From an uncultured Pseudomonadota bacterium (GTDB taxonomy: Bacteria; Pseudomonadota; Alphaproteobacteria; UBA9219), in the NCBI GenBank assembly GCA_903919315.1, contig CAIXHP010000032.1:1-64000 (forward strand): a stretch of DNA of 64,000 bases, given 5' to 3'. Below the pieces are notes generated by a model. That model saw only the letters and a list, made by a program, of their open reading frames with translations, was not told where the DNA came from and ran no database searches. Positions 1,682 to 53,241 of the stretch are shown here, one piece after another. Within the stretch, counting starts at the first letter, position 1. Every line of letters begins with the position of its first letter. The position numbers were made by a program, and so were the translations under genes.

Positions 1682-2848
1682 ATGTCCGATTCGAACCTTG
1701 AGCTTTCCATCGTCATGCCGTGCCTGAACGAGGCGCGGACGTTGCCGTTGTGCCTCAAAAAAGCGCAGGCTTTTCTAGCGGAAAACGGCGTTTCCGGCGA
1801 GATCATCGTGGCCGACAACGGCAGCACGGATGGCTCGGCGGCCTTGGCCCTCGAGTATGGCGCAAGGGTGCTGACGGTCGAAGAGCGCGGGTATGGCGCG
1901 GCGTTGGCAGGAGGAATCGCGGCGGCGCGTGGGCGCTATGTCATCATGGGCGATGCCGACGACAGTTACGACTTTGCCAACCTCATGCCCCTTCTGGCCA
2001 AGCTCCGCGAAGGCTACGATCTGGTGGTGGGCAACCGTTTCAAAGGGGGGATCGAACCGGGAGCCATGCCCTTCCTCAACCGCTTTCTCGGCAATCCGGT
2101 TTTAAGCGCGTTGGGGCGGTTGTTTTTCCGCATTCCGCTCGGCGATTTCCACTGCGGTCTGCGCGGCTTTGGTCGCGAAGCGATGCAAAAGCTCGACTTG
2201 CGCACCACCGGCATGGAGTACGCCAGCGAGATGATCGTCCGCGCCGCCCTCCACGGCCTCAGCATGGCCGAAGTCCCCGTGGTGCTGAAACCCGACGGAC
2301 GCGGCCACAAATCGCACCTGCACCCATGGCATGACGGCTGGCGGCACTTGCGCTTTCTGCTGCTTTATTCGCCGCGCTGGCTTTACCTCTATCCGGGATT
2401 GGCGATGATCGTGGCGGGGTTGGCCATCGCCGCGCTGCTGCTGCCCGGCCCCATGATGATCGCGGACGGCGTGGGGCTGGATGTCCACACGCTGCTGGTC
2501 GGTTCCATGAGCATCCTTGTGGGCGTGCAAAGCATCACTTTCGGCTTTATGGCGCGCAGCTATGCCATGGCGAACGGGATCATCCCAACGCCCTCGCGCT
2601 ACGACAAACTCATGGTCGGCCTCACGCTCGAACGGCTTCTTGTGCTGGCGGGCGGGCTGATCCTGCTGGGACTGATCGCGGTGGCGTGGGCGATGCACCG
2701 CTGGTCGGCGGTGAACTTCGGAGCCCTCGATTACCGCGACGCCATGCGCCTCCTCATCGTCGCCGTCACCTGCATCGTCGCTGGCCTCCAACTCGGCTTC
2801 GCCGCGTTTCTGCTGGGCGTGATGCAGATACGGCGGAGGAAGGGGTAA
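1682..2848 (+). CDS. family 2 glycosyltransferase with C-terminal membrane domain
   Basis: A protein of 388 residues. The N-terminal GT-A domain has the family 2 signatures: 'SIVMPCLNEART' (about 9-20), 'VADNGSTDGS' (43-52, nucleotide binding) and 'DADDSYD' (91-97, the DxD-type metal/sugar-nucleotide site). It resembles dolichyl/undecaprenyl-phosphate sugar transferases (DPM1/GtrB type). From about residue 230 there are about four hydrophobic segments, so the enzyme is likely anchored in the inner membrane and charges a polyprenyl phosphate with a sugar; donor and acceptor cannot be read. It lies alone between the tRNA and convergent rpoH, with only 8 bases to the rpoH stop and no terminator visible between them. 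The ribosome-binding site is weak. Confidence 0.88.
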   Translation: MSDSNLELSIVMPCLNEARTLPLCLKKAQAFLAENGVSGEIIVADNGSTDGSAALALEYGARVLTVEERGYGAALAGGIAAARGRYVIMGDADDSYDFANLMPLLAKLREGYDLVVGNRFKGGIEPGAMPFLNRFLGNPVLSALGRLFFRIPLGDFHCGLRGFGREAMQKLDLRTTGMEYASEMIVRAALHGLSMAEVPVVLKPDGRGHKSHLHPWHDGWRHLRFLLLYSPRWLYLYPGLAMIVAGLAIAALLLPGPMMIADGVGLDVHTLLVGSMSILVGVQSITFGFMARSYAMANGIIPTPSRYDKLMVGLTLERLLVLAGGLILLGLIAVAWAMHRWSAVNFGALDYRDAMRLLIVAVTCIVAGLQLGFAAFLLGVMQIRRRKG

Positions 2849-2856
2849 CCCCCACA

Positions 2857-3750
2857 TCACGCCACCGGCAGCAATCCCTCCTTGGCCGCCGATTTCTGGA
2901 TGTTCGCCTGCAGTTTCTCGAACGCGCGCACTTCGATCTGGCGGATGCGTTCGCGACTGATGTTGTGTTTTTGGGAGAGGTCTTCGAGCGTAGCGGGCGG
3001 ATCGGTCAGACGGCGGGCGACGATGATCTCGCGCTCGCGCTGGTTGAGCCCCAGCATCGCGCTGGCCAACAGTTTTTGCCGCAGGCGCAATTCCTGCTGC
3101 GCGCCCATGTGGCTTTCCTGGCTTTCGGTTTCGTCGGCCAGCCAGTCCATCCACTCGCCCTCGCCGTCCATGCGGATGGGCGCGTTGAGCGATTGGTCGC
3201 CGCCCGCCAAACGGCGGTTCATCTGGACGACATCGTCCTCCGGCACGGCAAGTTGAAAAGCGATCTTCTTCACCTGCTCCGGCGACAAATCGCCGTCATC
3301 AATCGCCTGCATCTCGCGCTTGAGACGCCTGAGATTAAAGAACAACTTCTTTTGCGCCGCCGTGGTGCCGATCTTCACCAATGACCACGAATGCAGAACA
3401 TATTCCTGCATCGCCGCCTTGATCCACCACATGGCATAGGTCGCAAGGCGAAAGCCGCGTTCGGGATCGAAACGCTTGACCGCCTGCATCATGCCGACGT
3501 TGCCCTCGGCGATCAGTTCGGACAGAGGCAAGCCATAGCCGCGATAGCCCACGGCGATCTTGGCCACCAGACGCAAATGGCTGGTGACAAGCTTGTGCGC
3601 AGCCTCAAGGTCGCCATGCTCGCGCCACGACTTGGCGAGCATGTACTCCTCGTGCGGCTCCAGCATGGGGAATTTACGAATCTCGCGCAAGTAAACCGCA
3701 AGATTGCCTTCCCCCCTCAGCACCGGAAGATTGGTCACGGCTACGTTCAA
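2857..3750 (-). CDS. rpoH: RNA polymerase sigma-32 factor RpoH
   Basis: About 297 residues, normal for RpoH. Region 2 has 'RLVAKIAVGYRGYGLPLSEL' and 'GMMQAVKRFDPERGFRLATY', and 'MWWIKAAMQEY' in 2.4. It is followed by the RpoH-box-like 'QKKLFFNLRRLK', which separates heat-shock sigma factors from RpoD. The region 4 helix-turn-helix is at the end ('LEDLSQKHNISRERIRQIE'). It directs transcription of heat-shock genes and in alphaproteobacteria is itself regulated. No ATG fits: TTG at 3750 is chosen because AGGAGG (3760-3765) lies 9 bases upstream, whereas TTG 3756 would leave only 3 bases. A TTG start would lower translation, which may be part of its control (inference). Confidence 0.95.
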   Translation of the reverse strand: MNVAVTNLPVLRGEGNLAVYLREIRKFPMLEPHEEYMLAKSWREHGDLEAAHKLVTSHLRLVAKIAVGYRGYGLPLSELIAEGNVGMMQAVKRFDPERGFRLATYAMWWIKAAMQEYVLHSWSLVKIGTTAAQKKLFFNLRRLKREMQAIDDGDLSPEQVKKIAFQLAVPEDDVVQMNRRLAGGDQSLNAPIRMDGEGEWMDWLADETESQESHMGAQQELRLRQKLLASAMLGLNQREREIIVARRLTDPPATLEDLSQKHNISRERIRQIEVRAFEKLQANIQKSAAKEGLLPVA

Positions 3751-3759
3751 GATCAAACG

Positions 3760-3765
3760 CCTCCT
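3760..3765 (-). promoter_or_regulatory. AGGAGG ribosome-binding site fixing the rpoH TTG start
   Basis: The minus strand reads AGGAGG, then nine bases, then TTG at 3750. This is the best Shine-Dalgarno match here and is too close (3 bases) to the TTG at 3756. A GTG further in (the Val of 'AVTNLPVL') is too far away. The site therefore decides for a TTG start at 3750. Confidence 0.6.
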
Positions 3766-3809
3766 CTGCCCGCGCAGGCTAACAGCATCCCGCCTCTCGG
3801 CCTAACGGC

Positions 3810-3838
3810 AATATTGTGGCAGCACAGCGCAATTACAA
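3810..3838 (-). promoter_or_regulatory. possible sigma-70 promoter of rpoH
   Basis: On the minus strand, TTGTAA (3833-3838) and AATATT (3810-3815) are separated by 17 bases, about 60 bases upstream of the rpoH start. Each hexamer matches consensus at four of six positions. This is a weak match of correct geometry only. Confidence 0.3.
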
Positions 3839-3883
3839 GACCGGCTGATAACCTTATGATAACAATAAAAAACACCCTCCAGA

Positions 3884-3997
3884 GTCATGCTCGCGAAGGC
3901 GAGCATCCATCACCCGATGGAGCCCCAAGCGCACAGTTTCAGAACCCAGCGCAAACGTTGCCGACAGGTGATGGATTGCCGCCTACGCGGCAATGAC
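3884..3997. repeat. inverted pair of a genome repeat (REP/BIME-like)
   Basis: The left arm 3884-3913 begins GTCATGCTCGCGAAGGCGAG and runs on to CATCCATCAC. The right arm 3968-3997 is its imperfect inverse. Inside the left arm, ATGCTCGC-GAAG-GCGAGCAT is an 8-bp hairpin with a four-base loop. Related units occur at 4023, 7002, 21935 and 44126-44238, always between genes or at gene ends. This is a dispersed palindromic repeat family. Its translation gives the 'VIPAKAGIH'-type spurious peptide familiar from many genomes. Mobility or function is unknown. Confidence 0.75.
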
Positions 3998-4022
3998 GCT
4001 TGCGGAGAGAAAGCCCCTTTGT

Positions 4023-4056
4023 GTCATCCCCGCGAAGGCATCCATCGCCCGATGGA
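4023..4056 (+). repeat. partial unit of the same repeat family
   Basis: Begins GTCATCCCCGCGAAGGCATC and continues CATCGCCCGATGG. It lacks the second half of the hairpin (the GCGGGG that would follow GAA). It lies just downstream of gatA and looks like a truncated copy of the unit at 3884. The whole 3767-4080 gap between rpoH and gatA is filled with repeat units and no gene. Confidence 0.6.
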
Positions 4057-4080
4057 GCCTTACGCGCGCCGCCCCGGAAC

Positions 4081-5565
4081 CTACCCCATAAACGGCGGAG
4101 TCGCGGTAAAGCCCGCCGCCTTTTCGAGCGCCGAGGCCGCCTTAAACAGCGTCATCTCGTCAAAAGCGCGGCCAATCATCTGCAAGCCCATCGGCAACCC
4201 GTTCGCCCCCAGCCCCACCGGCACCGAGATGCCCGGCAGCCCAGCAAGATTCAGCGTAACGGTGAACACGTCCTCCAGATACATCTGGATCGGATCGTCC
4301 TGCTTCTCGCCGATGGCAAAGGCCGTGGACGGAGCCGTCGGGGTGAGGATCACGTCGCAGGATTTGAACGCTTCCTCGAAATCGTTACGAATGCAGCGCC
4401 GCACTTTCTGCGCCTTGAGGTAGTAAGCGTCGTAATAGCCCGCCGACAACACATAGGTGCCGATCAAAATACGCCGCCGCGTTTCCTTGCCGAAACCCGC
4501 GCCGCGCGTGTTTTCGTACATGCTGATCAAATTGTCGCCGGGGACGCGCACGCCGAACCGCACGCCGTCATAGCGCGCGAGGTTCGAAGACGCCTCGGCG
4601 GGCGCGATGATGTAATAAACCGGCAAAGCGTATTTGGCGTGGGGCAAGCTGACCTCCACCACCTCCGCGCCCGCGTCGCGCAGCATGGCCGCGCCTTTGT
4701 CCCACAGCGCGTTGGTTTCGGCGGGAATGCCATCGATGCGGTATTCGCGCGGAATGCCGATCCGCAAGCCCTTGACGGACTGGCCCGTCGCCGTCGTGAA
4801 ATCCGGCACCGGCTGGTTGACCGAAGTGGAATCTTTCGGGTCGAACCCGGCCATCGTGCGCAGCATCAACGCGGCATCGTCCACCGTCCGCGCCAACGGC
4901 CCGGCCTGATCCAACGACGAAGCATAGGCGATGATGCCCCAGCGCGAGCAACGACCATAGGTCGGCCTGACGCCGACGATGCCGGTGACGCTTGCGGGCT
5001 GGCGGATCGAACCGCCCGTGTCCGTTCCCGTCGCCGCCATGGCGAAACGTCCCGCCACCGCCGCCGCCGAACCACCCGAAGAACCGCCCGGCACCAGCTT
5101 GCGCGCGGCCTTGGACGGTTCCGCGCCCGACCAAGGGCTAACGACATTGCCATAGCCCGACGTGGTGTTCGACGAGCCCATGGCGAACTCATCCAAATTC
5201 GTCTTGCCGAGCATAACCGCGCCCGCGTCGAACAATTTCTGCGACACGGTGGATTCATAGGTCGGCACGAAATTATCGAGGATACGGCTCGCCGCCGTCG
5301 TCCGCACGCCCTTGGTGCAATACAAATCCTTCATGCCCAGCGGAATGCCGTCCAAAGCCCCGACCGTGCCCGCCGCGCGCCGCGCGTCCGAGGCCTTGGC
5401 CTGTTCCTGCGCCAGATCAAAGGTGGTGGTGATGAACGCGTTGGTTTCCGCCTGCCCTCGTTCGGCAGCCTTGATATGCGCCGCCGTGAGTTCAACCGCG
5501 CTGAATTCTTTCTTCGCAAGGCGCGTCACGGCCTCGGTGATGGACAGATGCGTAAGCTGGGTCAT
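4081..5565 (-). CDS. gatA: Asp-tRNA(Asn)/Glu-tRNA(Gln) amidotransferase subunit A
   Basis: 494 residues, the usual GatA length. It is the amidase subunit that releases ammonia from glutamine so GatB can transamidate mischarged Glu-tRNA(Gln) or Asp-tRNA(Asn). The amidase-signature triad is visible: Lys79 in 'GIPLGMKD', Ser162 in '[10 protein letters not shown]' and Ser186 in '[10 protein letters not shown]', with the expected spacing. The start ATG at 5565 overlaps the gatC stop by one base (TAATG), so translation is coupled; the longer upstream open frame is rejected. gatB, often the third gene, is not here: downstream come only repeats and rpoH. Confidence 0.97.
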
Positions 5566-5928: not shown

Positions 5929-6453
5929 ATGATGGAAGGCAAGCTATCATTCGGCATGCCCATCTGCAACCTCGCCGATCTGCCCCCCTTGCTGAAACCC
6001 GGTCAGTGCCTGCTTGGCCTCGATCCGGGCAGTGTCGTTGTGGGCGTGGCCATTTCCGACCCCGGCCTGCGCGTAGCCTCGCCGCTTATGGGGTTAACGC
6101 GGGGCAAATTCGCGGCGGATGCGGCAACTCTGGCGAAAATCATCCGGGAACGGGCCATCGGCGGCCTCGTCATCGGCCTGCCCAAGAACATGGACGGCAC
6201 CGAAGGCCCCTCGGCGCAGTCGGCCCGCACCTTCGCGTCCAACCTGCTGCGGTTTCTCAAAGCACTGCCGGACAACCCCCACGACATGCCCGCCGCCTTT
6301 TGGGACGAACGCTTCTCCACCGCCGCCGTCACCCGCTTTATGATCGAAGGCGACATGAGCCGCAAACGCCGCGACGCCGTGGTGGACAAAGCCGCCGCCG
6401 CCTACATCCTCCAAGGCGCCCTCGACGCCCTCACCCACCGCGCTACGCCGTAA
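5929..6453 (+). CDS. ruvX: RuvX/YqgF Holliday-junction resolvase-like nuclease
   Basis: 174 residues from ATG 5929, which has AAGGG 8 bases upstream; ATG 5956 ('MPICNLADLP...') matches the usual family N-terminus better but lacks a site. The RNase H-like fold is recognisable: 'LLGLDPGSVVVGVAISD' (first acidic residue), 'GGLVIGLPKNMDGTEGPSA' (second strand and Glu) and 'WDERFSTAAV' (family WDER signature), with the final Asp in 'KRRDAVVDKAAA'. YqgF proteins take part in 16S rRNA 5'-end maturation or in recombination. The long open frame running upstream to 4000 is antisense to gatA and not coding. The last 26 codons are duplicated at 7025-7105. Confidence 0.93.
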   Translation: MMEGKLSFGMPICNLADLPPLLKPGQCLLGLDPGSVVVGVAISDPGLRVASPLMGLTRGKFAADAATLAKIIRERAIGGLVIGLPKNMDGTEGPSAQSARTFASNLLRFLKALPDNPHDMPAAFWDERFSTAAVTRFMIEGDMSRKRRDAVVDKAAAAYILQGALDALTHRATP

Positions 6454-6489
6454 AACGCTCCAAAGCGTCGTCAACTCAAAGAACGCCGC

Positions 6490-6846
6490 TCAGCGCAACT
6501 TTTTTTTGCCACCTTGCCCGCAACCGAACACTCTCGTTCTAACCAACAAAAAGGCGGCCAACAAGGGAAGCACCGTTAAACAAAAATAAGCACCAGCTAT
6601 GAATAGACCGTCAACAATTTGTTCTCGGGTAGCATAGACAAAAACAGCAAAGAACAACAGCGACACCGCCAGATAGGTCCAGACAAAACGCATCCTTGCG
6701 AAGGCCAAGAGTCCCAAAAACACAAAAGAGTCTATCGCCAATATAATCCAAGCATTCAACATAAACATGTCAAAGGCGGTCATATCGGCAGCCATCGCCT
6801 CTACCGGAATAAAAATGGCCAGCAGGGCCACGATGAACCTGATCAT
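6490..6846 (-). CDS. hypothetical membrane protein with signal peptide
   Basis: 118 residues from ATG 6846, supported by GGAGGA 8 bases upstream; the longer start at 6879 has no such site. The N-terminus is a clear signal sequence ('MIRFIVALLAIFIPVEAMA', likely cut after AMA). Two or three further hydrophobic segments follow ('NAWIILAIDSFVFLGLLAF', 'YLAVSLLFFAVFVYA', 'AYFCLTVLPLLAAFLLV') and the C-terminus is basic. No family is recognised. It lies in the AT-richer pocket between ruvX and the duplicated ruvX tail, so it may have arrived with that rearrangement. Confidence 0.65.
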   Translation of the reverse strand: MIRFIVALLAIFIPVEAMAADMTAFDMFMLNAWIILAIDSFVFLGLLAFARMRFVWTYLAVSLLFFAVFVYATREQIVDGLFIAGAYFCLTVLPLLAAFLLVRTRVFGCGQGGKKKLR

Positions 6847-7001
6847 AACAAACGTCCTCCGACAGTCCCTCGCGCACAAGGCAACAAAACAACGTCAAAA
6901 CAAACATAAACCATGCTTTGCCACGAAACAACACACCTCACCGATCGCGCCCAGCACAAGGCTCTATCCGTCCTCGCGCCACGCCATAAAGCCCCCCAAG
7001 A

Positions 7002-7022
7002 GTCATCGCCGCGAAGGCGGCG
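7002..7022 (+). repeat. half unit of the dispersed repeat, fused to the ruvX-tail copy
   Basis: Reads GTCATCGCCGCGAAGGCGGC and then runs, with no gap, into the duplicated ruvX 3' end. In complete units the hairpin would be followed by GATCCATCAC. The switch point lies at about 7022-7025. Confidence 0.6.
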
Positions 7023-7024
7023 AA

Positions 7025-7105
7025 GCCGTGGTGGACAAAGCCGCCGTCGCCGCCTACATCCTCCAAGATGCCCTCGACGCCCTCCCCCACCGCGCTGCGC
7101 CGTAA
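7025..7105 (+). pseudogene. duplicated 3' end of ruvX
   Basis: These 81 bases match the last 78 bases of ruvX (6376-6453), from GCCGTGGTGGACAAAGCCGC to the TAA, with four substitutions and one 3-base insertion (an extra Val codon). The frame is kept to the stop. No start codon or upstream domain is present, so it cannot encode a functional RuvX; it is a gene fragment about 650 bases from its source. Similarity ends at the stop codon and at the repeat unit on the left. Confidence 0.85.
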
Positions 7106-7118
7106 GCCGCCGACAAGC

Positions 7119-7619
7119 TCAGGCCCGAACAGAATCAAGCCACGCATTAAGCTCTGTAAGAAAAGCTCCCGCCTGTTCAAAATATCCCAAGGCATACACA
7201 GGGTCGTTCCACATCGCCTGATAAGCAACGGCCTCCTCCTGCGAGTGTACCTTCACCATGTCAAAGCATGGCGCGTTTTCCCCATCCCACTCGGCTATGC
7301 GAAAACCTGCTTTTCTCAGTGCAGGATCAAAACTTGGATCCAGAATGCGCCAAGCCCCATCGATTTCAGCCTCGACATAAAAATGCGTCACAAGAAACCG
7401 GGCCGGATACAAATCGACGATTCGATCAGGAATGATGGTTCTGTCCCAACGCGTTTCACCTACACGCCCACGGACAGCGTACCCTAAGACCCCCAAGCGT
7501 TGGAGCAGTTCAACCCCTTTGAAATAACAATTGTCCGCAGGCATCCCGATTTTATCTGATACCCGATAAGGGCGCGACCGTATTTCCTCGAAAATGCGCC
7601 TCGCGGTTTCATGTGCCAT
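7119..7619 (-). CDS. transglutaminase-like cysteine-peptidase-fold protein
   Basis: 166 residues. The arrangement fits the transglutaminase-like core: Cys31 in 'DNCYFKGVELLQRLG' at the start of a helix, His79 in 'VTHFYVEAEIDGAWRILD', and Asp94 following in 'ILDPSFDP', the expected Cys-His-Asp triad. No signal peptide or membrane segment is seen, so it is probably cytoplasmic. Such small stand-alone domains may act as peptidases or amidases; the substrate is not readable. ATG 7619 has GAGGG 5 bases upstream. It stands 40 bases downstream of mutT on the same strand and may be the last gene of that unit. Confidence 0.65.
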   Translation of the reverse strand: MAHETARRIFEEIRSRPYRVSDKIGMPADNCYFKGVELLQRLGVLGYAVRGRVGETRWDRTIIPDRIVDLYPARFLVTHFYVEAEIDGAWRILDPSFDPALRKAGFRIAEWDGENAPCFDMVKVHSQEEAVAYQAMWNDPVYALGYFEQAGAFLTELNAWLDSVRA

Positions 7620-7659
7620 TTACACCCTCTTGCTCTCCACAGGAAATATCGCGCAGCCC

Positions 7660-8067
7660 TTATAGCCACGCCGCCAACAAGGCCGCCACCGGCACATCCG
7701 CCGGAGGCATGGGGTAGGCCGTAAGCTGATCCTTCCGCACCCAAACCAACCTCTGGCCCTCTTGCGGCTGAGGCTCCCCCCGCCAGACACGGCAGACGAA
7801 AAGCGGCATCAGAAGGTGAAAATCAGGATAGGCGTGCGAAACGAACGTAAACGGCGCGAGGTCTTCCAGCGCAACCGTGATGCCAAGCTCCTCATCCAGC
7901 TCCCGCGCCAAAGCCTGCTCCGGAGTCTCGCCATCGTGTATCTTGCCGCCGGGAAATTCCCACAGTCCCGCCATCGACTTGCCCGCCGGACGATCCGCCA
8001 GCAGCACGCGCCCCGCGCCGTCGATCAACGCAACCGCCGCCACCAGCATCAGCTTGCCGGAACTCAC
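7660..8067 (-). CDS. mutT: 8-oxo-dGTP diphosphatase (MutT, Nudix)
   Basis: 135 residues. A complete Nudix box is visible at 41-63: 'GGKIHDGETPEQALARELDE' followed by ELGI, matching Gx5Ex7REUxEExGU. The upstream 'VLLADRPAGKSMAGLWEFPGG' and downstream 'HAYPDFHLLMPLFVCRVW' are typical of MutT, which hydrolyses oxidised dGTP and prevents A:T to C:G transversions. The start is GTG, overlapping the TGA of the upstream acetyltransferase by GTGA (8064-8067), so the two are translationally coupled. Confidence 0.93.
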   Translation of the reverse strand: MSSGKLMLVAAVALIDGAGRVLLADRPAGKSMAGLWEFPGGKIHDGETPEQALARELDEELGITVALEDLAPFTFVSHAYPDFHLLMPLFVCRVWRGEPQPQEGQRLVWVRKDQLTAYPMPPADVPVAALLAAWL

Positions 8068-8636
8068 AGCGCCCCCTTCCGGCGCTCATTCCGCTCATAG
8101 ACAACGCGCGTCAACTCCCAGCGCGTGACCTCGACCCCGCCGCGCAGCGCCTCGCCCACGCGGGGACGCAGCCCGACATAGGTCAGTCCGGCGCGGCGCA
8201 ACACATTCTGCGAAGCCTCGTTGGCAGGGTCGGTGGTGGAAATAACCCGTTCGATTTCCGGCCGCCGGAACGCCAGCGCCAAAACCGCCGCCACCGCCTC
8301 GCTCATATAGCCCTGCCCCCAGTACGCGCGGCCCAGCCAATAGCCGATCTCGACTTCTTCAGGAAGCCGCTCCTGCGTGTTCGAAGGATGCAGCCCGACC
8401 CCGCCCATCGCCGCGTCGCTGGCCTTGTTCGCGATCAGGAACAGCTCCGGCCTATCGGCGCGATAGCCCTCCTCCATGTGCCGCAAGAATTTCTCCGCGT
8501 CTTTCAGCGTAAAAGGATAAGGCACGCGCGAAAGCCACTGCGTCACGTCCCATTCGCCGATCAGGCGCGTATAGCGCGGCAGATCCTCGCGCGTCAGCGC
8601 GCGCAGGATCAAACGGTTCGTTTCGGCAAAAATCAT
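8064..8636 (-). CDS. GNAT family N-acetyltransferase (RimJ/RimL type)
   Basis: 190 residues. Begins 'ETNRLILRALTREDLPRY', the usual opening of RimJ/RimL-type acetyltransferases. It contains the acetyl-CoA-binding motif A region 'EIGYWLGRAYWGQGYMSEAV' (Q/R-x-x-G-x-G/A variant) and motif B 'TDPANEASQNVLRRAGLTYVG'. Such enzymes acetylate protein N-termini or small molecules; the substrate cannot be inferred. It forms an operon with mutT (4-base overlap) and lies 6 bases downstream of the ABC ATPase gene. Confidence 0.9.
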   Translation of the reverse strand: MIFAETNRLILRALTREDLPRYTRLIGEWDVTQWLSRVPYPFTLKDAEKFLRHMEEGYRADRPELFLIANKASDAAMGGVGLHPSNTQERLPEEVEIGYWLGRAYWGQGYMSEAVAAVLALAFRRPEIERVISTTDPANEASQNVLRRAGLTYVGLRPRVGEALRGGVEVTRWELTRVVYERNERRKGAL

Positions 8637-47524: not shown

Positions 47525-49744
47525 TTACCGCCCCTTCGTCCGATCCACCGAGATGATGGCCGTGCTGGCGCGCAGCGCCGCGATGACATTCATAAGGTGA
47601 GCCGAGTCCTTGACCTCCACATCGACCAGAATATCAAAGAAATCCGTCGTGCGATTGGTGATTTTAAGATTAAGGATATTGCCGCCGCCCTTGCCGATGA
47701 TCGTCGTCAGAGAGCCGAGACTGTTCGGCTGGTTGGTGACGACGATGCTGAGCCGCCCGGCCATACTGGATTCTTTGCCGTAAGCATCGCCCCAACCGAC
47801 ATCCACCCAACGCTCCGGCTTGTCGCGGAACGAGCTGAGCGTTTCGCAATCCAGCGTATGGATCGTCACGCCCCGCCCCGTCGCGACGATGCCCACAATC
47901 GCGTCGCCCGGCAGCGGATGGCAACAGCGGGCGAAACGAATGGCCATGCCGGGAATAAGCCCTTTAAGTGCCAAAGGCGGATGCGCGTGAGCCTTGCCCT
48001 TCTGCGGCGCGACCATGCCCGCTTCGGAGAGCGGGATTGCCTTCTCGGCGGTTTTCGCCCGATGCTGCGGAAAAGCCGCGTTCAGCACATCGCGCGGCGA
48101 CTGCAACGAAGCGCCGATGTTGGCCAGCAAATCCTCAAACGTCGCCGCCTGAAAAGTCTTCGCCACGGCCTCGAACGGCTTTTCGCCGAAGTCCAAACCT
48201 TCCTGCTTGCACAGCTTGTCGAGGATGGCGCGGCCCAGCGTGACATATTCCGTGCGTTGCTGGGCGCGAACAAAACGGCGTATGCGGGCGCGCGCCTTGC
48301 CGCTGACGACGAAACGCTCCCACGCGGGCGACGGCGTGCCGCCCTTTTGCGTCACGACCTCGACCTGATCGCCGTTGTGCAGCACCGTCCGCAACGGCAC
48401 CATCCGCCCATTGACCTTGGCGCCGACACAACAGTCCCCGACTCCGCTATGCACGGCATAGGCGAAATCCACCGGAGTCGCGCCGCGCGGCAAGGCGATC
48501 AAATCGCCCTTGGGCGAAAAGCAAAAAACCTGATCCTGAAACAGCTCCAGCTTAGTGTGTTCCAGAAATTCTTCCGGCTTCTGCGCATGCTCCACAATGT
48601 CGAGCAACTCGCGGAGCCAGCGGTATTGCGTTCCGTCCGTGCGCTGCTCGCCCTGCTTGTAGCCCCAGTGCGCCGCGACACCCAACTCCGCCACTTCGTG
48701 CATGGCGTTCGTGCGGATCTGGATTTCAATGCGTTGACGATGCGGGCCGATGATGCCTGTGTGCAAACTTTGGTATTTGTTCGGCTTTGGCGTTGAAATA
48801 TAGTCCTTGAACCGGCCCGGCACGACCGGATAATGGCTGTGGATCACGCCCAAAGCCTGATAACACTGCTCCACCGAATCGACGAGAATGCGGAACGCCA
48901 TAATGTCGGACAGTTGCTCGAAGGCGACGTTTTTGCGCTTCATCTTGCGCCAGATGGAATAAGGAGTCTTTTCGCGCCCCTCCACCGTGGCGACGATCCC
49001 CGTTGCGGCCAGAACTTTCCGCAATTCGTCCTGAACCTTGGTGGCCACGTCGCCGCCTTCGCTGCGCAGGAAATTCAGGCGGGCAATAATGCTGTTACGC
49101 GCGTCGGGGTTCAGCTCGGCGAACGACAAGTCCTGCAACTCGTCCTGCATCGTCTCGATGCCGATGCGCTCCGCCAACGGAGCATAGATGTCCAGCGTCT
49201 CGCGCGCGATGCGGCGGCGCTTGTCCTGATTCTTCAGATGGTGAAGCGTCCGCATGTTGTGCAGACGATCCGCGAGCTTGACCAGCAGCACGCGAATGTC
49301 CTCCGACATCGCCAGCACCAGCTTGCGGAAATTTTCGGCCTGTTTGGCCTGATCGTTCTGGAATTCGATGCGCGAGAGCTTGGTAACGCCATCCACGAGT
49401 CGCGCGACGCTAGGGCCAAATTGTTTTTCAATGTCCGCCAGCGAAGCCAGCGTATCCTCGACCGTATCGTGCAGCAGCGCCGTGGCGATGGTGGTGCTGT
49501 CCATCTTCATCCCGGTCAGGATGCCCGCCACCTCCAACGGATGCGAAAAATAAGGATCGCCCGAAGCGCGCATCTGAGCGCCATGCGCCTGCATCGCGAA
49601 CACATAGGCGCGGTTCAGCAGATCTTCGTTCGCGTCGGGATCATACGCCTTGACCCGCTCCACAAGCTCATATTGCCGCATCAGACGCGGCTTCACAGGA
49701 GCGGAAACGCCATCGGTCGGCGGTACATTCAAACCATCGGGCAT
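47525..49744 (-). CDS. rsh: bifunctional (p)ppGpp synthetase/hydrolase Rsh
   Basis: 739 residues from ATG 49744; Met22 ('MRQYELVERVKAY') is the usual family start and may be the true one. The hydrolase HD domain is intact: His54, His68, 'LLHDTVEDT' (His92-Asp93, Glu96-Asp97) and 'VKLADRLHNMRTL' (Asp159). The synthetase has 'GREKTPYSIWRKM', 'LSDIMAFRILV' and 'RFKDYISTPKPNKYQSLHTG'. TGS (about 400-465) and C-terminal ACT domains follow. It controls the stringent response. Only 13 bases separate it from the upstream RSH-like gene, so the two are probably co-transcribed. Confidence 0.97.
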   Translation of the reverse strand: MPDGLNVPPTDGVSAPVKPRLMRQYELVERVKAYDPDANEDLLNRAYVFAMQAHGAQMRASGDPYFSHPLEVAGILTGMKMDSTTIATALLHDTVEDTLASLADIEKQFGPSVARLVDGVTKLSRIEFQNDQAKQAENFRKLVLAMSEDIRVLLVKLADRLHNMRTLHHLKNQDKRRRIARETLDIYAPLAERIGIETMQDELQDLSFAELNPDARNSIIARLNFLRSEGGDVATKVQDELRKVLAATGIVATVEGREKTPYSIWRKMKRKNVAFEQLSDIMAFRILVDSVEQCYQALGVIHSHYPVVPGRFKDYISTPKPNKYQSLHTGIIGPHRQRIEIQIRTNAMHEVAELGVAAHWGYKQGEQRTDGTQYRWLRELLDIVEHAQKPEEFLEHTKLELFQDQVFCFSPKGDLIALPRGATPVDFAYAVHSGVGDCCVGAKVNGRMVPLRTVLHNGDQVEVVTQKGGTPSPAWERFVVSGKARARIRRFVRAQQRTEYVTLGRAILDKLCKQEGLDFGEKPFEAVAKTFQAATFEDLLANIGASLQSPRDVLNAAFPQHRAKTAEKAIPLSEAGMVAPQKGKAHAHPPLALKGLIPGMAIRFARCCHPLPGDAIVGIVATGRGVTIHTLDCETLSSFRDKPERWVDVGWGDAYGKESSMAGRLSIVVTNQPNSLGSLTTIIGKGGGNILNLKITNRTTDFFDILVDVEVKDSAHLMNVIAALRASTAIISVDRTKGR

Positions 49745-49757
49745 AAGGAAGCCTAGT

Positions 49758-51773
49758 TCAGGCGGGCGTCGTTTGCAAGGGAGCGGGGATGGAGGCGGCA
49801 CGCCGTAGTGCCAAAGCAAAGCCCCGCGGCGGCCTTGCCATCGGCTGTGGCTGAGATGCCATTGTGAACCGAACCGTAGCAGCGTGAGGCAGTGGCCTAT
49901 TCAGTGCCTGGCGATAAGCATCATCGGTCAACCTCTGGCCATTGATTTCCGCAGCTTCAACGCCGGACCAAAAATCAATGCGAAGAGATCGGCCAAAGTC
50001 GCCAAGCGTCGGCGCACGCCCGTCAGTCTTTTCCAAGCGATGCAAGACACCGTCCGCCCCGCCCACCACGATATAAGGCCACTCCTGATGCTCCGGCAAC
50101 TCGCGCCCATTCAAACGGGCCCCCATCCACATTTGCAAATGGGCCATCATGTTATGGCGCAGTTTGCCGCGCGTCGGCCCCGTAGTATCCGGATGCGGTC
50201 TTGTGTCCGTAAGGTCCTTACCCGCAGCCCGCATTGCCTTGTGCACGCCATGGTGCGCCTCGCCATGCCCATTCGCCTCGTGCATCGATTGGGTCACCAT
50301 CTGAACTTCGACCTCAAGTCCTTGTTCAGTCCCAAGCTGCTTGATAATCAGCCCGTCATGTATCGCGGCATAACCATTGGGTTTCGGCTTCGCGACATAG
50401 TCCTTGTGCCGGCGCGGCATAGGTTCAAAAGCGTGGATCAGCGCGTTCCTAAGCCCCTTCAATCGCGCATGATTCTGTCTAGCATTGATGTGCCCCTTCA
50501 ATGTAAAACTATCGGGCAAAACAAAACGAAACGCATAGATGTCGTAAATGCCCGTGATTCTGGCGTCAGGCGACAACCGATAAACCGGATAACACTTTTC
50601 ATCGAAATCCTTCTGCAGCTGTCGCATGGCATCATTATACGCGCCCGCGTTAAGCTCGCCTCTGTCCAATTGTCCCGCCAAAGCCTCGCGCGCGGAATCA
50701 AAGGCTTTTTCGTCATCCTCTCTCGGCATAACCAGAAGCTTTTGTTGAATCGACCAAGGGGCTTTGACCCGACCAGTCACCGAAGCGATGGAATCTGTGC
50801 CGAACCCTTGCCGTTCGAGTCCTGCCAAGATTTTTTCCTGAATAACGGCAAGATTCGCTTGCGCACGCATGGCATCAAGCTGCACCCGAATAGAGCGCTC
50901 CGCGTCCGGATCGAGTTGATGCAGCAACAGATGCTGCATTTCCCGCTGAATGGGTCGGAGGGTTTCCATTTCACCCACCAGCGGCAAATACATTTCCTGA
51001 ATATGAAGCCTCAGCAGCGTTCGCGCAGCCTCGTCCCCTCGCCCTTTTCCCATAACCCGGAGCTTTTCCAAAGCATCCGCGATCTTGATGAGCGCAACAC
51101 GCGCCGGATTTCTGGTGCCGAGCACCAAATCCTGTCCCAACGCGTATTGCGTCTTGTTAAATAAAATGTCCCTTCGGCGGAGCATGCCTTGAGCGTCAGG
51201 AATACGGCTGGTAATCGGCTGGCGGGTGATGCGGCTAACCTCCTCGACCATCGCCACAATCGGCGGGTGCGCGGCAAAGGTTTCCTGCACACGGCTGATG
51301 GGAATGATGTCATAGGCCACATATTCCTGCAGCAACGCGGCTATGACAGAAATGACTCGTTGCGCTTTTTGCGTTGACGCGCTGGACTGTGTTTTTCGAC
51401 CGCCGCGTGACGGTTCTGCCACCGCCGCATCAGGCTGGACGCGATCAATATTCATGGCGGCCACCGTCATGGCCACACGGAGGTCGCTCTCGAAAGTTCG
51501 ACCGTAGTCCAGTTCATGAGACTCAAGAGCCCGCGCCAATTTTCGAGGATGGTCGCTCTCTTCGATCAGATTGACAGCCTGCGTCACCAAGCCAACATCG
51601 CCGTCGATGCCGCGAATCAGATCATAAAGATCTTGCTTGCGAGGATGGAGCTTCTGACCAACGTCAATGACGAAACTGCCGATTCGACGCGCCAAAGCCG
51701 CCTGACCGTCATCGCCGCCAGAAGGAAGCGTCAACACATCATAAGCTCTGGTCGTTGACCTGCGTCGAGGCAT
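49758..51773 (-). CDS. divergent RSH-like protein, putative monofunctional (p)ppGpp-type synthetase
   Basis: 671 residues from ATG 51773 (AAGGG 9 bases upstream; GTG 51779 is too close). The synthetase domain (about 325-515) keeps the RSH catalytic pattern: 'GRVKAPWSIQQKL' (Arg335, Lys337, Ser341), 'IYDIYAFRFVL' (Asp411), 'RRHKDYVAKPKPNGYAAIHD' (Lys457, Lys464, Asn466, Tyr468, His472) and 'EVEVQMVTQSMHEANGHGEA' (Glu489, Gln491). The upstream helical region aligns with an HD domain, but 'LLHDTVEDT' is replaced by 'LLQEYVAYD' (149-150 Gln-Glu), so hydrolysis is unlikely; only Asp233 of the later motif remains. The first 130 and last 150 residues match nothing I recognise; no clear TGS or ACT domain. 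It sits between rpoZ and rsh. Confidence 0.8.
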   Translation of the reverse strand: MPRRRSTTRAYDVLTLPSGGDDGQAALARRIGSFVIDVGQKLHPRKQDLYDLIRGIDGDVGLVTQAVNLIEESDHPRKLARALESHELDYGRTFESDLRVAMTVAAMNIDRVQPDAAVAEPSRGGRKTQSSASTQKAQRVISVIAALLQEYVAYDIIPISRVQETFAAHPPIVAMVEEVSRITRQPITSRIPDAQGMLRRRDILFNKTQYALGQDLVLGTRNPARVALIKIADALEKLRVMGKGRGDEAARTLLRLHIQEMYLPLVGEMETLRPIQREMQHLLLHQLDPDAERSIRVQLDAMRAQANLAVIQEKILAGLERQGFGTDSIASVTGRVKAPWSIQQKLLVMPREDDEKAFDSAREALAGQLDRGELNAGAYNDAMRQLQKDFDEKCYPVYRLSPDARITGIYDIYAFRFVLPDSFTLKGHINARQNHARLKGLRNALIHAFEPMPRRHKDYVAKPKPNGYAAIHDGLIIKQLGTEQGLEVEVQMVTQSMHEANGHGEAHHGVHKAMRAAGKDLTDTRPHPDTTGPTRGKLRHNMMAHLQMWMGARLNGRELPEHQEWPYIVVGGADGVLHRLEKTDGRAPTLGDFGRSLRIDFWSGVEAAEINGQRLTDDAYRQALNRPLPHAATVRFTMASQPQPMARPPRGFALALRRAASIPAPLQTTPA

Positions 51774-51823
51774 AACCACAAACCCTTACCGCAATAGACC
51801 CAATTCCAAAAATACGGCTTCGC

Positions 51824-52231
51824 TTAATCCTTCACGTCAGCGTCTTCAAAGCTGGTCACAAGGCCGCTTTGGTCAGCATCGGATTCGACTTCTTCGGCAT
51901 CCAAATCTTCGTCGCCTTCTTCCTCGCCGCCGAGATCGGCGTTGATCCAGCTCTGCTGTTCGCCCGCCATCAGTTCAACGACTTCTTCTTCCGGTTGGTC
52001 GGGTTCAACGCGCTTCTGCAAACCCTTGACCAAGGTTTCATGCAGGCTCGCCAAATCCAGACGCTCCTCGGCGATCTCGCGCAAGGCCACGACCGGGTTT
52101 TTGTCACGATCACGCTCCAGCTTCAGCTCGGCACCGGATGCCAACGCGCGCGCGCGATGCGCGGCCAGCATCACCAACTCAAACCGATTGGGAATTTGCA
52201 GAACACAGTCTTCAACAGTCACGCGCGCCAT
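51824..52231 (-). CDS. rpoZ: RNA polymerase omega subunit
   Basis: 135 residues from ATG 52231. '[20 protein letters not shown]' and '[15 protein letters not shown]' are the omega signature; '[17 protein letters not shown]' follows. The C-terminal acidic tail (Glu/Asp-rich, residues about 85-135) is an alphaproteobacterial extension. Omega helps assemble RNA polymerase and forms part of a ppGpp-binding site in E. coli. rpoZ next to rsh is a usual order; here another gene intervenes. Confidence 0.95.
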
Positions 52232-52481
52232 TTCCAAAAACCCCTGCCGATGAGAAGAAAATTCGCCTGCTTATCCGCATTACCTCTGATTGGAAGCAAA
52301 TTACCCCAAAAAGATATGAACAACGAAACAAACCAGCTTACCGCGTCTATACTAACCGTTTTTGTGAGTGCATGTAAAGCGTCGCTGCGTTATAATCATG
52401 CCGAAAGGTGGGGAGAATTTGTCAATCCCTGCCTTGCGGCTTAATTTTTCTTGGACTAGTTTTGTTTGTGGCCCTGATTCG
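52232..52481. other. intergenic region between divergent rpoZ and the NYN gene
   Basis: No gene is supported. It is AT-richer than the flanks and must hold the promoter of rpoZ and probably that of the NYN gene; no convincing -35/-10 pair stands out. The next feature, a long hairpin, begins at 52482. Confidence 0.4.
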
Positions 52482-52608: not shown

Positions 52609-53241
52609 ATGATATTCTATAAAGAAGAGCGGATGGCGATGTTCATCGACGGGGCCAATCTGTACGCCGCCGCACGGGGGCTCGGTTTTGACATCGATTA
52701 CAAGCGGCTTTTGGAACTCTTCGCCGGACGTGGTCGTCTGGTGCGGGCGTTCTATTACACCGCCCTCATCGAAAACGAAGAATACTCGCCGATCCGGCCG
52801 TTGGTGGATTGGCTGGACTACAACGGCTACGCCATGGTCACCAAGCCGACCAAGGAATTCACGGATGCCTTTGGCCGCCGCAAGATCAAGGGCAATATGG
52901 ACATCGAGCTGGCCATCGATGTCATGGAGATGTGCGAACACGTCGACCACATCATGATCTTCTCCGGCGACGGCGATTTCCGTCGTCTGGTCGAAGCGGT
53001 GCAACGCAAGGGTGTGCGCGTCAGCGTCGCCAGCACGATGCGCTCCTCGCCCCCCATGGTGGCAGACGAACTGCGCCGTCAGGCCGACAACTTCATCGAA
53101 CTGCAAGACCTGATGCCCCACATCGCGCGCGCGCGCGATCCGAACCAGCAACAGCAGCAGCCGGCAGGGAATCAACCCAACATGAAGGAAGTCGCCCAAA
53201 GCCTAGCGGCAACCCAAGAAGCCATCCAAGAAGTCGCTTAA
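52609..53241 (+). CDS. NYN domain (LabA/DUF88-type) protein
   Basis: 210 residues. The PIN-like NYN core is complete: 'AMFIDGANLYAAARGLGFDI' (Asp14 and Asn17), 'GNMDIELAIDVMEMCEHVDH' and 'IMIFSGDGDFRRLVEAVQRK' (DxD), with 'GVRVSVASTMRSSPPMVADE'. These acidic residues bind metal in predicted RNA-cleaving nucleases. The C-terminal tail is Gln-rich (about 180-187). Related alphaproteobacterial proteins are conserved near rpoZ/rsh; their target is unknown. A strong bidirectional terminator follows. Confidence 0.9.
   Translation: MIFYKEERMAMFIDGANLYAAARGLGFDIDYKRLLELFAGRGRLVRAFYYTALIENEEYSPIRPLVDWLDYNGYAMVTKPTKEFTDAFGRRKIKGNMDIELAIDVMEMCEHVDHIMIFSGDGDFRRLVEAVQRKGVRVSVASTMRSSPPMVADELRRQADNFIELQDLMPHIARARDPNQQQQQPAGNQPNMKEVAQSLAATQEAIQEVA

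Follow-up and report, generated by a model that had tools for sequence, protein, structure and literature searches.

What is a second, divergent RelA/SpoT homologue (RSH) doing between rpoZ and a canonical rsh gene, in a class (the Alphaproteobacteria) whose members are generally credited with a single long bifunctional Rsh? The stretch of DNA in which it lies (64,000 nucleotides, referred to hereafter as the window) presents the following layout, X denoting the gene at issue:

52609-53241, plus strand, divergently transcribed: gene for what we take to be an NYN-like protein, the conserved border of the rpoZ-rsh neighbourhood.
51824-52237, minus strand: rpoZ (RNA polymerase omega), the upstream neighbour of X.
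49758-51773, minus strand: gene X, a 671-residue RelA/SpoT homologue, apparently hydrolase-dead and synthetase-intact (judged from its reading frame, domains, residues and model).
47525-49744, minus strand: canonical rsh, complete with HD, SYNTH, TGS, AH/RIS and ACT domains in that order and both active sites intact.

The frame of X is a real one and offers two starts, GTG at 51779 (the first start codon, giving an ORF of 49758-51779, and the point from which all residues of X are counted here) and ATG at 51773 (with a better-spaced AAGG); the latter yields exactly the 671 residues of the first-pass annotation. X begins ~50 nt downstream of rpoZ, and its stop codon is separated by 13 nt from the likely ATG of rsh at 49744 (the rsh ORF extends over 47525-49819, its first TTG lying inside X). 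This spacing makes co-transcription of rpoZ, X and rsh plausible; scans for promoters and terminators between the three genes gave site counts close to those expected from shuffling the sequence, none of the sites being convincing. The named relatives of the window Rsh come from Micavibrio and from alphaproteobacterial MAGs akin to it, and on this basis we assign the genome to the Micavibrionales; within its 2.4 Mb, X and rsh carry the only two RelA_SpoT domains. A literature search for RSH proteins in Micavibrio found nothing. The account towards which we lean, with moderate confidence, is that rsh gave rise to X, a presumably active RSH of RelA-like, synthetase-only type, housed in a slot at which alleles are swapped.

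We sought the basis of this account in the domains of X, three of which can be delineated:

50820-51380, minus strand: degenerate HD (hydrolase) fold, X residues ~134-320 (from the HD_4 profile, residues and model helices).
50238-50780, minus strand: SYNTH (alarmone synthetase) domain, X residues ~334-514 (from Pfam, residues and model).
49860-50075, minus strand: probable degenerate TGS (beta-grasp) domain, X residues ~569-640 (from model elements and profile alignment).

The hydrolase region is recognizable to HD_4 at a sub-threshold score (25.1 bits vs a cut-off of 27.2, residues 144-267), and a comparison of the eight hydrolase positions (GSQEAYDK in X vs RHHDEDDN in canonical Rsh) reveals that a single one has been kept. 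The HD motif itself reads Gln-Glu (residues 151-152) in place of His-Asp, as the first-pass annotation had stated, and residues 1-130 hold no recognized domain. The SYNTH domain scores 43-45 bits against Pfam RelA_SpoT (PF04607, cut-off 27), and every one of the 13 pocket residues that we scored is retained in the window X (R337, K339, S343, K347, D413, R418, K459, Y461, N468, Y470, H474, E491 and Q493), including all of the synthesis residues quoted earlier. The rest of the domain is identical at 28 of 102 positions (27%); the resulting difference between pocket and surroundings (Fisher p=3.6e-7) should be read as a guide only, since the aligner itself favours conserved anchors. Some of the scored positions we chose from what we take to be general knowledge of the family. 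The others, comprising the catalytic, adenine and guanine contacts, follow PMC7983052 (all 13 being numbered by RelSeq), in which R241 and R269 form the adenine sandwich, D264 and E323 serve catalysis and Y308 stacks with guanine; by alignment, the pocket set of X includes each of these five residues. Judged by its residues, X looks like a hydrolase-dead, synthetase-competent long RSH.

Two features of the synthetase region deserve separate description. The SYNTH motif of X is the basic RHKD, as in Rel. The arginine of the QIRT motif, invariant in Micavibrionales Rsh (A4 R369), is replaced by Val495 in the window X, and is also replaced in the other members of two groups of the X family (A and C, see below). 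An altered base specificity via Asn503 (at the position of RelSeq A335) was entertained and dropped, as the canonical Rsh of another genome (G010) also has Asn at this position.

An AlphaFold2 model of X, built on an alignment of 30 sequences with canonical Rsh among them, gave a mean pLDDT of 75 and a pTM of 0.76, the SYNTH core lying mostly above 80. Foldseek searches with this model retrieved B. subtilis Rel, full-length SpoT and RelP/RelQ (6ewz, 6ex0, 5ded), together with the catalytic regions of RelSeq, RelTt and S. aureus Rel; the predicted fold matches that of Rel/SpoT and RelP/RelQ, with no wrecked domain, in keeping with the earlier identification. The homology is observed directly in a profile-profile comparison of ten X proteins with twelve Rsh (E=1.6e-48), whose alignment runs from the HD region into TGS. 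Beyond this point the two part company: a Pfam profile search found neither AH/RIS (helical, ZFD) nor ACT domains in X. The first-pass annotation had described the C-terminal 150 residues as resembling neither these domains nor TGS; the former part stands, whereas the latter gives way to a region that is probably a degenerate TGS. Residues 569-640 of the full model follow a beta-beta-alpha-beta-(alpha)-beta order of TGS type, and the Pfam TGS profile reaches 21.1 bits on the X homologue of one genome (G009), just under its cut-off of 22.2. Folded alone and without canonical sequences, the C-terminus of the window X gave a low-confidence model with a weak TGS match and no significant match.

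These features suggest a protein that would have arisen from a tandem copy of rsh, with its ATP-dependent pyrophosphokinase site preserved, its HD reduced to a pseudo-HD scaffold and its TGS degenerate; it would have lost the site for hydrolysis and, with AH/RIS/ACT, the C-terminal half that senses the ribosome. Such a protein would use ATP as the pyrophosphate donor for a nucleotide of guanosine (or another base); the ppApp and pGpp first proposed as products would, judged from sequence, be speculative. Because X is without the half that contacts the ribosome, it is, from what is known of these domains, unlikely to answer stalled ribosomes in the classical manner, and would probably act outside the ribosome-bound stringent cycle; its product would be degraded by the neighbouring intact Rsh. 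All Micavibrionales Rsh in our set keep 8/8 hydrolase residues, and the synthetase pocket too, apart from one position at which Tyr has become Phe in two of them. A division of labour through loss of the Rsh synthetase was considered and rejected, the Rsh examined from this order retaining both sites.

Profile searches put X in no described RSH subgroup, consistent with the divergence first remarked upon, and X fits none of the bifunctional Rel/Rsh, RelA and SAS groups exactly. From bifunctional Rel/Rsh ([HS]) it differs in its single remaining hydrolase residue of eight, the missing AH/RIS/ACT and a TGS that is degenerate at most. A close parallel is to RelA[hS] of beta- and gamma-proteobacteria, likewise a second long RSH that descends from Rel, its HD inactive and its SYNTH intact (for X, by its residues), and that leaves hydrolysis to another RSH; however, RelA[hS] has an acidic EFDD and a full ribosome-binding C-terminus where X has RHKD and no AH/RIS/ACT, and the hypervariable X, unlike RelA[hS], has as its neighbour a bifunctional Rsh with both sites intact. 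The sections of PMC3153485 that bear on these groups state that RelA or SpoT never occurs in organisms that encode Rel. The lineage-specific RshB, RshC and RshD described there are, like X, divergent second copies of Rel (the HD of RshB has diverged, and some RshC are without ACT), although they belong to other phyla or classes and those sections describe neither a tandem rpoZ-X-rsh arrangement nor allele swapping (PMC3153485). Similarly, rickRel[hS] of the Rickettsiales comprises alphaproteobacterial synthetases, some with very divergent HD regions, but is set apart from X by its description: it comes from another order, and the corresponding section mentions no rpoZ-rsh slot (PMC3153485). 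RelP/RelQ (SAS) share the SYNTH fold, to which X adds a pseudo-HD and a probable TGS in the domain order of a long RSH. The Micavibrionales, an order related to the predatory Micavibrio, have apparently made their own RelA-like hydrolase-dead synthetase, of which all but the pocket has diverged; that a long RSH without hydrolase should have arisen independently in one order of Alphaproteobacteria would be of interest, and allele swapping at its slot more so.

To place X in its order, we inspected the rpoZ-rsh junction of 33 Micavibrionales genomes (readable in 26, unreadable in 7). An X-like gene occupies the slot in 8 of the 26 (the window genome, G001, G002, G004, G006, G008, G009 and G025), spanning all three families of the order, and in the remaining 18 rpoZ and rsh are adjacent without X; this synteny is a direct observation. 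As direct adjacency prevails in most members of the order and also occurs in other alphaproteobacteria, X is best seen as a later addition. Two further genomes, G013 and G019, carry X at a second locus (L156:4485-6296 and L157:3248-5200), beside genes that are presumably dnaK and purN, and have no X at their rpoZ-rsh junction. Across the class, searches with RelA_SpoT (192 genomes) and with an X profile (386 genomes) yielded no other tandem pair among the matches listed or followed up, a survey that rare divergent cases may escape; second RelA_SpoT matches elsewhere in the class were, among those examined, mostly short SAS-like ORFs or on separate contigs. The tandem had been called unusual, and with these counts it is indeed rare.

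The ten X proteins are 16-40% identical in pairwise comparisons (the nine others to the window X, 16-27%). Seven residues are invariant in all ten (R337, K339, D413, Y470, G506, H510 and K514), every one within the SYNTH region; the other nine proteins retain 8-13 of the 13 pocket residues, the lowest being G019 (8/13) and G009 (10/13). A tree resolves firm small groups, A (G006, G008, G013, G019), B (G004, G001, G002) and C (window, G025), with G009 alone; its branches are very long and the deeper ones unreliable. The idea that X forms one RSH subfamily of its own does not survive this tree, which holds at least four very divergent groups in one slot. All X fall on one side of a single branch with weak support (64/30), a single origin of X from rsh being tentative. 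Group membership mostly tracks the host family, but group A turns up in another family as well, there at the second locus.

Such a pattern could be taken to mean that X is a superfluous, decaying copy that serves no function of its own: its distribution is patchy, its divergence fast and the G002 copy shortened to 476 residues. Yet the frames remain open over 476-730 residues in ten genomes, and the catalytic residues have been selectively spared while all else diverged, which decay would not do; we consider this reading very improbable. Alternatively, X might be a pseudoenzyme or regulatory partner that binds nucleotide or Rsh and tunes the latter, making no alarmone itself. Its tight linkage to rsh, the lost QIRT arginine, the degenerate HD and TGS and the eroded pockets of some members would all be compatible with this, although in the window X neither the catalytic pair (Asp and Glu) nor either arginine of the adenine sandwich has been lost, and nothing else in the family is nearly as well conserved as the pocket; a purely regulatory X is, in our estimation, decidedly unlikely. 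It is the survival of the pocket that renders both a pseudoenzyme and a decaying copy less likely than the RelA-like synthetase that we favour.

The variability of this putative synthetase is best appreciated in two close relatives of one genus (G008 and G009), whose proteins are near-identical around the slot (rsh 97%, rpoZ 96%, NYN gene 99%, marC-like gene 97%) and whose X proteins are 21-23% identical, an allele difference between sister genomes that is observed directly. Their DNA is 87% identical in the flanks up to nt 3082 of locus L057 (X start at 3089) and again from 5016 (X stop at 5041); similarity ends no more than ~10 nt from the start of X and returns near its stop, such that the two genomes differ here over little else than the coding sequence. 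An assembly chimera is unlikely, both flanks matching inside one long contig per genome (146 and 249 kb). Simple fast divergence of one orthologue within the slot was rejected: the dN of X (1.09) exceeds the dS of four neighbouring genes (0.48-0.87), and hence in-place divergence without strong positive selection cannot explain the G008/G009 pair. The two X may have been swapped by recombination in the flanks, or each genome may have lost different copies of an older tandem array; both fit the data. The rpoZ-rsh slot would, on either route, be a hot spot whose X alleles are replaced via flank recombination or are survivors of an older array of copies.

Differing alleles at a fixed site, patchily present, are also what one might expect of a defence gene: X could be a toxin-like alarmone or tRNA pyrophosphokinase, akin to toxSAS/CapRel, restrained by its pseudo-HD/TGS and triggered by phage or competitors, with an arms race driving the swapping. 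Extreme divergence around an active site that stays intact is consistent with this, as is the GC3 of X, which lies below that of the same-locus rsh in 6-7 of 7 loci, clearly in most (0.60 vs 0.76 in the window), and several X give weak PADLOC matches to PDC-S33. However, those matches span just the SYNTH domain, which is also the extent of the likeness between X and toxSAS/CapRel; X is built like a long RSH, unlike a toxSAS; no conserved antitoxin-like partner gene stands beside X at the slot; and close relatives of X were absent from genome contigs, viral contigs, and phage and plasmid collections, the last two holding just ordinary SpoT-like matches. A toxin-like X we therefore judge rather unlikely. 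Returning to the RelA-like synthetase, the selective force behind its variability is something that we infer: the Micavibrionales rpoZ-rsh junction might be a place where whole synthetase genes are exchanged start-to-stop in an arms race with phages or competitors, each possibly having its own trigger or product, with Rsh clearing what they make, an extension that we hold to be doubtful. A core signalling slot with swapping alleles, if true, would tie the stringent response to a turnover like that of immune and competition genes, and the X set offers a natural panel of very different synthetases for probing the residues that set product and regulation.

Several X loci contain additional genes. 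In G009 and G008, X and rsh flank what is presumably a gene for a MarC-like membrane protein (L057:5017-5637 and the corresponding part of L059), and the G009 copy begins before X has ended. A 459-residue ORF with no Pfam match separates X (6438-8288) from rsh (2316-4628) in G006 (L052, minus strand) and is absent from its congener G005. The rpoZ-rsh junction of G019 holds a frame of up to 97 residues of unknown kind (L035:4557-4964, minus strand). In G002 (L155:5158-8866, L045), several genes put several kb between rpoZ-X and rsh, and these look like sugar-nucleotide and polysaccharide genes.
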